From a virus, in IMG/VR virus record IMGVR_UViG_3300005056_000020, positions 1 to 30,095 of that record: a stretch of 30,095 bases of DNA; one strand, given 5' to 3'. Of this stretch, positions 7,863 to 25,659 are shown piece by piece. A program made the translations under genes and the position numbers. The notes beneath the pieces are model-generated. The model ran no database searches, was not told the origin of the DNA, and saw only the letters and a list, made by a program, of their open reading frames with translations. The first letter of the stretch is position 1; each line of letters begins with the position of its first letter.

Positions 7863-8034
7863 ATACGAAGTATTTGAAAAATACATAATACAGTTTAGTG
7901 AAGACCCACCAATACCGATGGGTATTGACGATGATGAAGTGGTTAAAGTTGTCGCTTTGCACATGGCACTAAACAAACCGATACCAGACGATTACGACTG
8001 GTATGAAGATTTGCCCGATAGGGCAGACGCTTAA
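7852..8034 (+). CDS. small acidic protein, candidate immunity partner of the MuF C-terminal domain
   Basis: 60 residues from a GTG at 7852 preceded by GGAAA. Longer in-frame starts at 7771 or 7777 would sit well inside the MuF gene and lack a ribosome site. The coding sequence overlaps the MuF stop by 11 bases, so translation is probably coupled. The protein is strongly acidic (15 Asp/Glu against 5 Lys/Arg), with a run GIDDDEVV and an end DDYDWYEDLPD. Toxin-immunity proteins are often small, acidic and encoded immediately behind the toxin domain, and this gene has exactly that position. It is followed by a terminator. The family is not recognised, and the immunity role is an inference. Confidence 0.6.
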   Translation: MTTKYEVFEKYIIQFSEDPPIPMGIDDDEVVKVVALHMALNKPIPDDYDWYEDLPDRADA

Positions 8035-8051
8035 ATAAATAGTTCAAACAT

Positions 8052-8075
8052 AACCCGCACTTAGCGGGTTTTTTT
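8052..8075 (+). terminator. rho-independent terminator
   Basis: A perfect 7-bp stem, AACCCGC (8052-8058) and GCGGGTT (8064-8070), with a 5-base loop is followed by an unbroken run of T to 8075. It lies 18 bases after the small acidic gene and separates the portal/MuF block from the scaffold and capsid genes. Confidence 0.9.
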
Positions 8076-8112
8076 ATGGCTGGTCGGTGACCGCAAATAG
8101 GGGCAGTGCCTA

Positions 8113-22400: not shown

Positions 22401-22787
22401 AATAGATCAGATCAACGTGACAAAGCAGATATTAGAGATACTACATTAGGTCTAGATTTCATTGACTCTGTTAGACCGGTCGAATTCAAGTGGGACTATA
22501 GAGAAGACTATGTTGAACAGACTCTCAATGAAGATGGGACAACTACAACAATCAATCATCCTGAAGATGGTAGTAAAAAACGTAGTCGGTATCACCAAGG
22601 TTTTATAGCACAAGAAGTAAAAGCGGTCATGACTGCACAAAATATTGATTTTGGTGGATATCAGGACCATTCAATTAATGGCGGTGCTGATGTTAAATCA
22701 CTTGGATATGAAGAGTTCATCGCACCAATCATAAAAGCAATTCAAGAATTAAAAGCTGAAATCGAATTACTTAAAAATCCTCTTTAA
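16470..22787 (+). CDS. giant tail hub/central fibre protein with YadA-like stalk and S74 intramolecular chaperone
   Basis: 2105 residues, overlapping the previous stop. In order: residues 1-560, a baseplate-hub-like beta module; about 610-800, a Gly-rich segment with clusters such as GGDGGASGAG; about 870-975, a fibronectin-III-like domain (VNYVYSEVYWRVKGTSAWIPA); about 1100-1550, fibre domains (NAQTAQDTADRKRRVF, YDDGDLWDTG). Residues 1550-1695 are two copies of a 73-residue unit. About 1751-1967 hold a run of 13 YadA-head-like AIG motifs. About 1976-2105 form a Peptidase_S74 domain, with candidate dyad Ser1980 and Lys1985 in NRSDQRDK. S74 domains trimerise the fibre and then cleave themselves off. 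This is the likely receptor-binding protein, acting in place of separate lambda J and side-fibre genes. Confidence 0.85.
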   Translation: MRLDNDEFAEKNTRLNKEPIFVVEIAFDELNTDVMYFTNKTVTGLTGTIFNKTLVSLSATSQDLTPEKAHCSIGNIKFKCKDEGVSDFIKAKTDLGVGLKGKRMRVYAGYKGLNWSDFVITQTQIVSKSIDLYKGALTFHGADISRQMRKTLFILKETALIKSLVKTDLTIQVENTSVFETVFQPPTATSIAPSQEIGIIKIENGDVFELIQWTSKDATHFYGCTRGILGTPIIEVVVIPGERGETVQEFVYMSAPALMVAYALMTGSWYGYAGKFLPEHWNLGISTNYIKTTDFIDIPDLWDINDINAGIPALVQDVSEVEGKAFIEIQLYFMLSVYPPINNNGEIGLRRLAAISELGTAELELTPKDFVSHGQLKEDLNAVVNRYVIKWDWSVTRQIFRRTTILVDQGSIDFYKTTKTQVIELRTLYGSADSLKVIYNNFNNIRTRSAYAPSRLSGVLTPNHNALEVGDVPRVKLHTLNNLNRNFEIQYTAIDWVKGGIQVDLFGSNGLVGPLIPESTTLVDTAFLATNVPLANWLTPTNFPGKITSADGVTHITGDITLTGNDLLNDVSCIYYCDEDLIQDLGAVITHTKNIQIRAKGYFTSYQDLNGKGQGYPGGVDTSTIGDVFSPHIPRNVPGKGTVGGVGRCSAGAGIEFERRGSISGNGRKWGDAVTHYGTTEARDYYRLPNTYELRIQDNVLVGLPNSLIGCSGTCGGGVNFNYKTSYKENRARGGDGGASGAGLVIISAGFNQGENAKIDLSGIDATPGESFYTHGMTFHAGSGAGGSSGGLIIISTDSAQYTETRTEFNTLLINGVTSIPSNIITHSWGEISSGNSYKGSPSGYPQEVENDYENFARLIYLDASSTFTEELPDYVETEPNFTLTTYIKEENSSIEVTVTPPPGDVNYVYSEVYWRVKGTSAWIPAESASHESVFIVPSNGAIIEVEIRPVSKALVATVTGYVKEIMVADRFGRTDIELAVVYPFDPITNLKIKGISGTVFSTKDAEFEWSGDNNSHDYFNLYDVEIYSGAQLLRTEKSVLPLYTYSYDKNVSDYLRLNSISGVYLSIEISVKATSKYYNLDAVLYSGPQVIFSSTASTFNSPDNLRFVQSTRDQIATDISAAEQSAKDYADTNFVTQVTLSSDLAGLQSQIDGNITTWFYTGIPTVSNAPASNWTTTTEKDNQLGDLYYDKNTGYAYRFMVESTVYSWQQLADSDITTALANAQTAQDTADRKRRVFNVTPVPPYDDGDLWDTGNGLKRSTVNRVTTYTASDWIEVADRTNYSDSRIDNTQQLWDELTDRPADSQLLNNMLDWSDWQAGTTGDTASYTAIGVSASNNREIVEGPFGEDTIVWEAEDDTGFITPAVPVDPSKTYRISLWIKVVGTVSTGNIYFYGTGANRYQELNNDSTSFAFFYNTTPTLSQRDRWVLLVGYILPHNTTRTVSGTLLGGLYDPETGLQQGVLSGNTKFLSTTTDMQFRAYTPSGDLGKYTLFARPRIDILDGNEVSLTSLLLGAKTSNLLNTNTIWDNVSGTPNAPADNADVTNYIDPRISNDELNGVIAAAAAAGATNQQIFDIQAAYNEGATTQQILDITAAALSANWAQVTGAGRPADNADITNYTDTRISNDELNGVIAAAAAAGATTQQIFNIQAAYDQGATNQQILDITAAAISADWAQVSGVGRPADNADVTANNTANDTVNVGGTPATQIISDLAGVKAQWSVKTVIADLEGGVGFYNDGLVTRWMVNAQLLGLGENAGISNQGANSLAIGNDAGSINQGANNVAIGKSAGYLGQQYQSVAIGFEASKTGQGAFSVSIGYKTSEVAQSTFAVAIGHTAAQNNQGSKSIAIGQNAANTNQGPGAIAIGRNSGANNQGENAIALGYRAGVINTDTQGVDSIAIGTNSNSKGLESLAIGYGASTTGLNGIAIGKQAGAGNYFPNSPYNNWVALGANSYVNGSNEIQLGDSITTVYAYGSVQNRSDQRDKADIRDTTLGLDFIDSVRPVEFKWDYREDYVEQTLNEDGTTTTINHPEDGSKKRSRYHQGFIAQEVKAVMTAQNIDFGGYQDHSINGGADVKSLGYEEFIAPIIKAIQELKAEIELLKNPL
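21117..21554 (+). repeat. tandem pair of 73-residue (219-bp) units in the fibre protein
   Basis: Units at 21117-21335 and 21336-21554 start at RISNDELNGVIAAAAAAGAT and end at RPADNAD(I/V)T. The protein copies match at nearly all positions, while the DNA differs at many third codon positions, so the duplication is old. Each holds two short helical motifs of the form GATxQQIxxIxAA, spaced 16 residues apart. Confidence 0.85.
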
Positions 22788-23085: not shown

Positions 23086-23226
23086 ATGTCCCTTAAAAAT
23101 CTCGAATACCAATTACAACTGTCCCAAAAAGATCTGACTTCACAAGAGTATTCAGAACTTCTTTCCAAATTAGAACAATCAATCACACGAATATTAGTTG
23201 TTAACGACAATGAAAAAGCGGCGTGA
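23086..23226 (+). CDS. small hypothetical protein (46 residues)
   Basis: 46 residues from ATG 23086, with AAAAAGG seven bases upstream. The in-frame ATG at 23080 lies directly beside the ribosome site and is less likely. The protein is helical and polar (MSLKNLEYQLQLSQKDLTSQEYSELLSKLEQSITRI), ending in VVNDNEKAA, and could form a short coiled coil. It is the only well-formed gene in the 820 bases between fibre and integrase, and it starts 60 bases after the 23007-23026 palindrome. A regulatory or excisionase-like role is possible only by position; there is no recognisable helix-turn-helix. Confidence 0.5.
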   Translation: MSLKNLEYQLQLSQKDLTSQEYSELLSKLEQSITRILVVNDNEKAA

Positions 23227-23256: not shown

Positions 23257-23312
23257 ATGGTGTACTGGATCTTAAAGAATCCTTATATATTGGTACACCA
23301 TTTATACACCAT
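23257..23312. repeat. left cluster of ATGGTGTAC-type 9-mers
   Basis: Three copies lie here: ATGGTGTAC on the plus strand at 23257-23265, the exact inverse GTACACCAT at 23293-23301, and a one-mismatch inverse, ATACACCAT, at 23304-23312. They lie just upstream of the predicted integrase promoter. Confidence 0.7.
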
Positions 23313-23322
23313 GACCGTTTTT

Positions 23323-23352
23323 TAGACTTCCTAACTATTTGATATTTATAAT
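23323..23352 (+). promoter_or_regulatory. predicted sigma70 promoter for the integrase
   Basis: TAGACT (23323-23328, 4 of 6 matches to TTGACA), an 18-base spacer and a perfect TATAAT (23347-23352) precede the integrase by about 250 bases, with no other open gene between. The 9-mer clusters flank it at 23257-23312 and 23523-23585, so regulation by a 9-mer-binding protein is plausible. Confidence 0.45.
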
Positions 23353-23522
23353 TATGTATTGGTTAGTCAGTCCACTCCATCATCGGAGCGATGCAAAAGC
23401 GCCTATCTACCGTATTGCTAGTGTTTACGGGGTGTTTCATTGATTCTACTGCGTTTTCATTAGTCATAAATTGTTTGATATATGGTCTATTTTGGGCGGT
23501 TTTGGGTGAAATTAAGATTTCA

Positions 23523-23585
23523 GTACACCAATGGTGTACTATTTATGGTGTATTTTATTCATGGTGTACCGTTCCTATGGTGTAC
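23523..23585 (+). repeat. right cluster of ATGGTGTAC-type 9-mers
   Basis: A near-inverse copy, GTACACCA, at 23523-23530 directly abuts ATGGTGTAC at 23531-23539, giving a 17-bp palindrome with one central base. Plus-strand copies follow at 23545-23553 (last base T), 23561-23569 and 23577-23585. The last four copies are spaced 14, 16 and 16 bases. The cluster ends 24 bases before the integrase start. Confidence 0.8.
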
Positions 23586-23609
23586 CGTAAGTATTAAGGA
23601 ATGGCACCG

Positions 23610-24761
23610 ATGGCTACAATTATACCAAGAGTTCGCGCAGATGGTACAACCGCGTACCGTGTACAGATCATCATCAAGAAAAAAGGTGAAATAGTACACC
23701 GAGAATCAGCGACTTTTGATAAAAAGCGGGATGCAGAATTGTGGGGTAAAAAAAGAGACACCACCTTAAGTACACCCGACGCTATAGACAAAATCAAAGA
23801 AGAGAAAGCGGCAGATGTGACGGTTAAAAAGTTAATTGAAATGTATGAAGAGAAAGTCGGTAAATTACAGCAATGGGGAAGGAGTAAACAAGCTGTTCTA
23901 AATTCGTGGAAGAATAACGAAGAAGGTTTAGCGAAGGTCACAGACGTTAATTCAGCATGGTTAATTGATTATTGCATCAAACGAAGTGAACAGGGCGCCA
24001 AACCACCAACGATTAACCAAGACATAGTTTTCTTACGGTCTGTGTTTGGTGTAGCCAAGGACGTGCTTGGTGTACCTGTCGGATTACACCCTTTCATCGA
24101 TGTTCAACCCACTTTAAAGAAATTAGGTCTTGTATCGAAAGCAGGTAAGCGGAGTAGACGACCCGAAATCGATGAACTCACTAAAATAATAGAAGTGGCC
24201 CGTAAAAGAGGGAAGACGATAAAACGGCGGGGTATACCTCGTATACCAATCGATAAACTAATCATATTCGCGATGTTCTCAGCGCGTAGGGTGAGCGAGT
24301 CTTGCAGAATACAATGGTCTGACTTGGACTATGACAACAAAAAGATACTTGTTCGGGACTTAAAAGACCCTAAAAACAAAAAAGATAATCACTTTTTAGC
24401 AACTGTACCCGATGAAGCGTGGGCAGTTATTGAATCAATGCCGAAAGTTAAAGGCGAAGACCGTATATTTCCTTATAACAGTGCCTCTGTGAGTGCCGCA
24501 TTCGAAAAGTGTCGAATTAAAGCAGGTCTTTCTTGTGACGACCCAGATGATAACCTCACATTACACGATTTAAGGCACGAGGCTTTGAGCTGGTTAGCTG
24601 AAAAGAATGGTTTACCTGATGAAAATTGGGATATACCACGTTTGCAGATGGTCTCGGGCCATAAGAATTGGGATGTACTGCAAACATACGTGAATCTGCT
24701 TACAGGCAAGCCGGTAGACAGGTGGAAAAATTGGGAATGGAAAACCAAAGTGTTAGAATAA
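23610..24761 (+). CDS. int: tyrosine recombinase integrase
   Basis: 383 residues from ATG 23610, preferred over ATG 23601 because the AAGGA site at 23596-23600 is spaced nine bases from 23610 but touches 23601. MATIIPRVRADGTTAYRVQI is the usual N-terminal arm-binding start. A SAM-like core-binding helical domain lies at about residues 65-150. The catalytic domain shows Arg227 (SARRVSE), His319 and Arg322 (HDLRHE), His351 (GHKNW) and nucleophile Tyr360 (QTYVNL). The set is complete, so the enzyme is expected to be active in site-specific integration and excision. It stands alone on its strand, with control repeats upstream and a terminator behind. Confidence 0.93.
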   Translation: MATIIPRVRADGTTAYRVQIIIKKKGEIVHRESATFDKKRDAELWGKKRDTTLSTPDAIDKIKEEKAADVTVKKLIEMYEEKVGKLQQWGRSKQAVLNSWKNNEEGLAKVTDVNSAWLIDYCIKRSEQGAKPPTINQDIVFLRSVFGVAKDVLGVPVGLHPFIDVQPTLKKLGLVSKAGKRSRRPEIDELTKIIEVARKRGKTIKRRGIPRIPIDKLIIFAMFSARRVSESCRIQWSDLDYDNKKILVRDLKDPKNKKDNHFLATVPDEAWAVIESMPKVKGEDRIFPYNSASVSAAFEKCRIKAGLSCDDPDDNLTLHDLRHEALSWLAEKNGLPDENWDIPRLQMVSGHKNWDVLQTYVNLLTGKPVDRWKNWEWKTKVLE

Positions 24762-24785
24762 AAAACCATTTCACTAAATGGTTTT
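24762..24785 (+). terminator. terminator behind the integrase
   Basis: AAAACCATTT (24762-24771), loop CACT and AAATGGTTTT (24776-24785) form a perfect 10-bp stem directly after the integrase stop. The U tract is only the four T of the stem, and the structure is symmetric, so it could end transcription in either direction. Confidence 0.7.
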
Positions 24786-24804
24786 AGTATATAAGGAGCT
24801 ATTT

Positions 24805-25347
24805 GTGCCAACTGAATATTTAGACATAATCGACACCGCTGTGAAAATTGGTTTTGGTGCTTTAATAAGTGGTATTACCACATATATGATCACACATAAA
24901 AGTCAGAGGGTTGAACTAGATAAAGAAGCTCGAGATAAAAAAATCAAAACATTAGAGTTTTCTATTGAAAATTTAGAGCCATTCTTTTTTGAGTATGAAG
25001 TATTTTTAGCAATACTTGACGGACATTTGAGGTCAAAGAGAATTACCGGAAAAGTTACAGATGATGAATGGTTTGATTTTGGTTATCAGAAGTTTGATGA
25101 TGAGCTAGTAAGCACTAGAAAGAAAAAAAATTCTAGTATTTCAAGGTTGAATATGATTGGGATGTACCCTTTAACGGAAAAGATCTTAGAAATAAATGAA
25201 ATTGAAAATCAGTTTCGTCAGAAGGTCATATTTGAAAAATACATACCAAATGCAGAGGAACTTAGTGAGCATACCAAACCATACCTCAAAGCTAAAAAAA
25301 GTTTTTATGCTGCTGTAAATGAGTCTTTCAACAGTTTATATCGTTAG
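24805..25347 (+). CDS. membrane-anchored accessory protein, unknown function (cargo candidate)
   Basis: 180 residues from GTG 24805, with AAGGAG 7-12 bases upstream. ATG 24778 is in the terminator and is rejected. One hydrophobic segment (about residues 12-30, VKIGFGALISGITTYMI) acts as a membrane anchor. It is followed by a charged helical region (ELDKEARDKKIKTLEF) and a soluble domain rich in Glu, Lys and aromatic residues. No domain is recognised. It has its own ribosome site and sits between the integrase terminator and a convergent replication operon, a usual position for lysogenic cargo such as superinfection exclusion or stress proteins. It is also slightly more AT-rich than the tail genes. 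Confidence 0.6.
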   Translation: MPTEYLDIIDTAVKIGFGALISGITTYMITHKSQRVELDKEARDKKIKTLEFSIENLEPFFFEYEVFLAILDGHLRSKRITGKVTDDEWFDFGYQKFDDELVSTRKKKNSSISRLNMIGMYPLTEKILEINEIENQFRQKVIFEKYIPNAEELSEHTKPYLKAKKSFYAAVNESFNSLYR

Positions 25348-25401: not shown

Positions 25402-25659
25402 TCAAGCCGCATTCATCTTATTCCAAATCTCTTTTTGTTTTAGCCTCGTTTCATCGATAAACTTGGCTAATTCTTCCACATGAATAAACCACTGTGAACG
25501 CTGTTTTCCTAGTCTAAATGCGGGAACAGGCAGCTTGTGATCTTTGGCCTGTCGGTCAGCCTCACTTTTTGTTTTGATCGCGAAATATTCATCAGCAACA
25601 TCATCAAGTGGGATTAATGGATTGTCGTACTGAGACATTAATAAGAATAGTGTGTTCAT
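25402..25659 (-). CDS. PrtN-family pyocin-activator-type regulator
   Basis: 85 residues on the minus strand, starting at ATG 25659 in a four-base overlap with the helicase stop. The pattern MNTLFLLMSQYDNPLIPLDDVADEYF, with a middle LPVPAFRLGKQRSQWFIHVEELAKFID, matches the PrtN family (small proteins of about 90 residues related to PrtN, the activator of Pseudomonas pyocin genes). As the last gene of the replication operon it would make early replication turn on a downstream program, for instance late genes. The binding site here is unknown. Confidence 0.8.
   Translation of the reverse strand: MNTLFLLMSQYDNPLIPLDDVADEYFAIKTKSEADRQAKDHKLPVPAFRLGKQRSQWFIHVEELAKFIDETRLKQKEIWNKMNAA

Follow-up and report, generated by a model that had tools for sequence, protein, structure and literature searches.

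The dusA-specific tyrosine integrases are a published family. More than 200 bacterial genomes are reported to carry such an integrase at dusA (PMC4482086; Farrugia et al. 2015), and the integrases and their islands are termed DAIs. A replacement 5' end of dusA, supplied by the element itself, has been reported for an island, and RdfN is described as the directionality factor of a dusA-specific island, where it is needed (both PMC8409611). The direct repeats to which directionality factors bind are spaced by one turn of the helix (PMC7498355). Arm-type sites are classical, and the domains that bind them are described as being made up of three strands and a helix (PMC8138268). For the dusA-specific family, arm sites appear to be undescribed; no description of them was found in the open-access papers searched.

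The stretch of DNA analysed here (30,095 nucleotides, the whole of IMG/VR virus record IMGVR_UViG_3300005056_000020, called the window) contains two clusters of a repeated 9-mer upstream of an integrase gene (int). The features of this region are collected in Table 1. Like the DAIs (PMC4482086), the element has a tyrosine integrase by a core matching the 5' end of dusA and brings a new dusA start; however, arm-type sites, which go unmentioned in the DAI paper (the word 'arm' does not occur in it), can be delimited in the window. With IMEVchUSA3, as described in PMC8409611, it has in common int, the dusA core and a PrtN-domain directionality factor, but IMEVchUSA3 is a mobilizable island whereas the window is a phage, and the rdfN homologue of the window is located on the opposite strand to int, about 640 bases past the int end. 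As in the attP of phage lambda (PMC4880445), putative arm-type sites flank the core and a small N-terminal domain would read them, although there are eight sites rather than five, and both their sequence and their orientation are different. A further difference from lambda is that the target lies in a protein-coding gene and that no conserved IHF site was found. The two clusters are very probably arm-type sites, one set on the P arm and the other on the P' arm of an intact phage attP, and would be bound by the N-terminal domain of the integrase.

Table 1. Features of the putative attP region, with positions in the window.
Feature	Position	Strand	Remarks
P-arm arm-type site (putative), outer, exact	23257..23265	+	L102 also has an outer inverted site
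P-arm arm-type site (putative), exact, first of tandem pair 11 bp apart	23293..23301	-	several relatives have 11-bp P-arm tandem pairs
P-arm arm-type site (putative), one mismatch, second of tandem pair	23304..23312	-	repeat search
att core encoding RRFCIAPMMEWTD, conserved DusA N-terminus	23366..23404	-	motif in 118/128 loci
Short ORF MTNENAVESMKHPVNTSNTVDRRFCIAPMMEWTD plus stop, would give new dusA 5' end on integration	23363..23467	-	
TTTTGGG, repeated directly at 10 bp; phased bend or sites for RdfN (candidates)	23490..23506	+	
P'-arm arm-type site (putative), one mismatch	23523..23531	-	repeat search
P'-arm arm-type site (putative), exact	23531..23539	+	repeat search
P'-arm arm-type site (putative), one mismatch	23545..23553	+	repeat search
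P'-arm arm-type site (putative), exact	23561..23569	+	repeat search
P'-arm arm-type site (putative), exact	23577..23585	+	repeat search
Tyrosine integrase of the dusA-specific family, 386 aa; residues 4-56 are the predicted N-terminal domain for arm binding	23601..24761	+	
85-aa protein with a PrtN domain, probably the recombination directionality factor (homologous to RdfN)	25402..25659	-	PF11112, phrog_1300

The repeated 9-mer, ATGGTGTAC, forms two clusters between 23257 and 23585, with five exact copies and three copies with one mismatch. This is the array claimed by the sequence-only reading, and comparison with shuffled sequences places it far above chance. Counted over the full record, exact copies occur only in this stretch: all five lie inside it and none outside. 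Allowing for one mismatch, the window holds 18 copies, whereas shuffles have 7.1 on average and none of 100 reaches 18; eight of the 18 are located within the 329 bases of the array, while the remaining ten are about the number expected by chance. The best repeated 9-mer family of 23257–23586 has a score of 13, with a maximum of 7 in 300 shuffles of the stretch. When 373 stretches of 330 bases over the whole window are compared, the best score that does not come from the array is 8 (at 2641), which bears out the claim that there is no comparable cluster elsewhere in the window. Clustering by chance or low complexity, with no function, would be in keeping with the ten one-mismatch copies found elsewhere, but is extremely improbable in view of the score of 13 against at most 7 and of the comparison with relatives; it was ruled out on these grounds. 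In the right-hand cluster the start-to-start spacings are 8, 14, 16 and 16 bases. With eight sites the window has more than most of its relatives, and the pattern of orientations on the P' arm is peculiar to it. An ORF of 46 amino acids with no PHROGs match (23086–23226, plus strand) precedes the P arm and stops 31 bases short of its first site.

Between the two clusters, the minus strand encodes RRFCIAPMMEWTD, followed by a stop codon. This sequence is that with which tRNA-dihydrouridine synthase A (DusA) begins, a conserved N-terminus. To the left of the array, a protein of 2105 amino acids with S74 and YadA-head matches ends at 22787. As phage genes are thus present on both sides of the core (this protein on one side, int on the other), the window is taken to contain an unintegrated attP. 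A search for a host attB in 369 genomes from the same class as that of Marinobacter koreensis found none with the core within three mismatches. Among phage records, a search for DNA relatives gave only two 42-base matches. A tRNA or tmRNA attachment site was considered and rejected, as none was found in the window; the only Rfam match up to an E-value of 1 is weak, below the gathering score and located elsewhere in the window. This match, to the Trp operon leader family at 7993–8077 (plus strand; 26.9 bits, gathering score 41), is probably due to chance.

The integrase matches PF00589. Residues R230, K255, H322, R325, H354 and Y363, which we take to be the catalytic residues of a tyrosine recombinase, are invariant in alignments of 13 and of 31 integrases, and the aligned integrases are 33–41% identical to that of the window. 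Scans with the single integrase sequence found no relatives; alignment-based scans did. The predicted structure has a mean pLDDT of 90.8, with an N-terminus formed by three strands (residues 4–11, 17–27 and 30–39) and a helix (residues 42–56). Residues 4–56 of the predicted structure match the description of arm-binding domains in PMC8138268. Compared by structure, the predicted integrase has lambda Int as one of its best matches. Rci-type recombinases are given as the nearest characterised relatives of DAI integrases; for the integrase of the window, shufflon recombinases come up among weaker hits. Directly downstream of int is an ORF of 189 amino acids (24778–25347, plus strand) without Pfam or PHROGs match. 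The PrtN-domain protein matches PF11112 (E-value 4.8e-20) and the excisionase family phrog_1300 (E-value 5.7e-24); it is probably a homologue of RdfN and a recombination directionality factor.

In the proposed mechanism, the N-terminal domain of the adjacent integrase would hold the arm sites, while its core-binding and catalytic domains would act on the dusA-like core between the clusters. Bending of the DNA would join arms and core, leading to the integration complex. Int subunits would bridge arm sites and core, and the integrative and excisive complexes would use overlapping sets of sites, both as in lambda (PMC4880445). The PrtN-domain protein would shift the reaction to excision, and on integration dusA would receive its new 5' end from the short minus-strand ORF, which runs from 23467 to 23363. 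IHF was considered as the bending protein. A match to its consensus, presumably WATCAANNNNTTR, is well placed in the window, at 23332–23344, between the P sites and the core, but is not conserved: any match is present in only three of 19 attP loci (360 bases upstream of int), and IHF was not adopted as the bending protein. Over the whole window the consensus is matched nine times against 2.7 expected, a number reached by none of 100 shuffles.

Related loci were gathered from phages (16), bacterial genomes (the best 80 of 334) and IMG/VR (the best 80 of 562). The integrase is present in 177 loci, the window included, and the counts rest on the 128 in which the sequence before int extends over 130 bases or more. 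On the same strand as in the window, the dusA motif lies upstream of int in 118 of the 128 (window included), and in 81 it continues into an ORF of at least 120 amino acids; two such downstream ORFs were tested and both are DusA, far over the cut-off of NCBIfam NF008774. A repeated 8-mer family is present in the 130 bases before int, equalled by at most one of 100 shuffles in 75 of the 128 loci and by at most five in 94. A stricter rule for the layout, with at least three copies of the word and a minus-oriented copy downstream of plus-oriented ones, holds for 108 loci, compared with four shuffled controls and 17 stretches from inside int (128 of each). At a score of at least 5, these numbers become 101, 0 and 2; 20 of the 128 loci have no array by the layout rule. 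Relative to the int start, plus-oriented sites are mostly located at about -60 and -45, minus-oriented ones at about -33 and -14.

The word is specific to the element, with TTGCTACA, GTGGTACA, GGTACTGC, GTGCTCCA, GTGCGCCA, GTACACCA and others found in different loci. Elizabethkingia phage EKP1 (L021), Marinobacter phage AS1 (L006) and the IMG/VR contig L102, the closest relative, have the same family of integrase and the same array layout. In EKP1 the core word GTACACCA is common with the window, in AS1 the word is GTGCTCCA and in L102 it is GTGCGCCA. The sequence-only reading had named conservation in close relatives as one of its tests: in the closest, L102, array and layout are kept, but the letters of the 9-mer are not, and ATGGCGCAC stands in their place. 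The same integrase family is present in the small, tailless Vibrio phage 10N.286.55.A5_PE002 (L016; Tectiliviricetes, 14 kb), where a gene noted as Thoeris ThsB adjoins that of the integrase.

The word found on the P' arm was also searched for on the other side of the core. Of 19 loci with an attP, 16 were used, and of 81 that are integrated, 61; those in which the P' word was reached by more than five of 100 shuffles were excluded. The 16 attP loci comprise two (L015 and L017) in which the picked word resembles the phased repeats described below rather than an arm word, and two bacterial genome loci (L059 and L094) that count as attP only provisionally. The P' word is present on the P arm in 14 of these 16, with 25 sites against 3.1 expected, and in several attP relatives it forms an 11-bp tandem pair there, like in the window. 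In the integrated loci, where the P-side stretch is host dusA, it is present in four of 61, with four sites against 9.1 expected. Far ends of prophages were inspected for four prophages and five ends, and two of the four prophages are positive. These are Azorhizobium (L078) and Bradyrhizobium (L064), where the second copy of the core, at a distance of 54 and 62 kb, respectively, has the word twice beside it, 67–82 bases off, with about 0.2 expected. At the far end of L058, the second core copy has no word beside it. L218, a further candidate end of L064, has a single distant match only, and the far end of L022, for which the automatic word was unsuitable, was excluded from the count.

For the comparison of word and integrase domains, 108 loci were reduced to 57 (integrase identity below 85%). 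The similarity of the words correlates with the identity of the integrase N-terminal domains (r 0.55). When the remainder of the integrase is controlled for, the partial correlation for the N-terminal domain is 0.35, reached in none of 2000 permutations that modelled the tree only partly, while with the N-terminal domain held fixed that for the rest of the integrase is 0.03 (648 of 2000 permutations). On the evidence of these sequences, the word co-varies with the N-terminal domain beyond the rest of the protein. Such covariation is expected of arm-type sites and not of the operators of another protein, which favours the arm-type reading. Arm-type sites and operators had both been offered by the sequence-only reading; the former are supported by this tracking, by the core between the clusters and by the recurring layout. 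Points against them are the 20 loci with no array, the two of four prophages whose far ends gave no usable match, the change of the exact word in L102, and the high number of sites and their P' orientations in the window.

An operator array would serve a phage repressor, or the autoregulation of int or of the promoter of the replacement dusA, and the P' cluster does lie directly upstream of int and also upstream of the replacement dusA start. However, the P cluster is located beyond the core and would be separated from int on integration, and in relatives the layout occurs in association with the att core. Nor is there a promoter above chance. The integrase promoter that had been placed between the clusters corresponds to the hexamers TAGACT-18-TATAAT, which are present at 23323–23352, but promoter-like sites are no commoner there than in shuffles (two against a mean of 3.6) and the hexamers are located beyond the core, about 250 bases from int; this promoter was rejected. 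An operator array is highly improbable as an explanation, although it partly overlaps with that by arm-type sites, as Int bound to them could also repress int.

It is also very unlikely that the 9-mers are sites for RdfN, loaded on the attachment site for excision, rather than sites for Int. A PrtN-domain gene is present and the P-arm pair, with its 11 bp, resembles the one-turn repeats of PMC7498355, but the 9-mers point either way, are located on both arms and are spaced by up to 21, and the word tracks the N-terminal domain of Int and not the rest of it. Moreover, a separate array of direct repeats at 10–11 bp suits RdfN better. In the window this second array is the T-rich direct repeat TTTTGGGCGGTTTTGGG, between the core and the P' sites, and in relatives T-rich repeats are located in the same interval, at about -150 to -58 from int. 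Direct repeats agreeing in at least seven of eight bases occur at an offset of 10 in 46 of 118 loci and at an offset of 11 in 25, compared with about 3.5 in shuffles. After dereplication of the 118 loci by DNA identity to 57, the z of the autocorrelation is 12.0 for an offset of 10 bp and 7.2 for one of 11 bp; leaving out T, z at 10 bp is 7.3. Inside int there is no autocorrelation peak at 10–11 bp. Some of the pairs at 10–11 bp are arm sites that extend into the stretch, for example in L102. As direct repeats at one turn are the targets of directionality factors (PMC7498355), the T-rich array may bind RdfN, the foremost candidate; phased T-tracts that bend the DNA are an alternative candidate.

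With the clusters read as arm-type sites, an unexplained repeat becomes a complete integration module with testable sites. An alphabet of arm sites for dusA integrases helps in the search for attP and for the ends of prophages, and in the choice of integrases without cross-reaction. As word and N-terminal domain co-vary, the relatives also offer natural data on the reading of DNA by arm-binding domains. More tentatively, and with the balance somewhat against it, the attP of the whole family may follow one plan, for which no description was found in the papers searched: arm words co-vary with the N-terminal domain of Int, and a second, helically phased array of T-rich direct repeats (10–11 bp), located on the P' arm between core and arm sites, is bound by RdfN. 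If this is true, the phased array also being upstream of the start of the replacement dusA, Int and RdfN would govern excision together with the expression of dusA, a host gene for tRNA modification.
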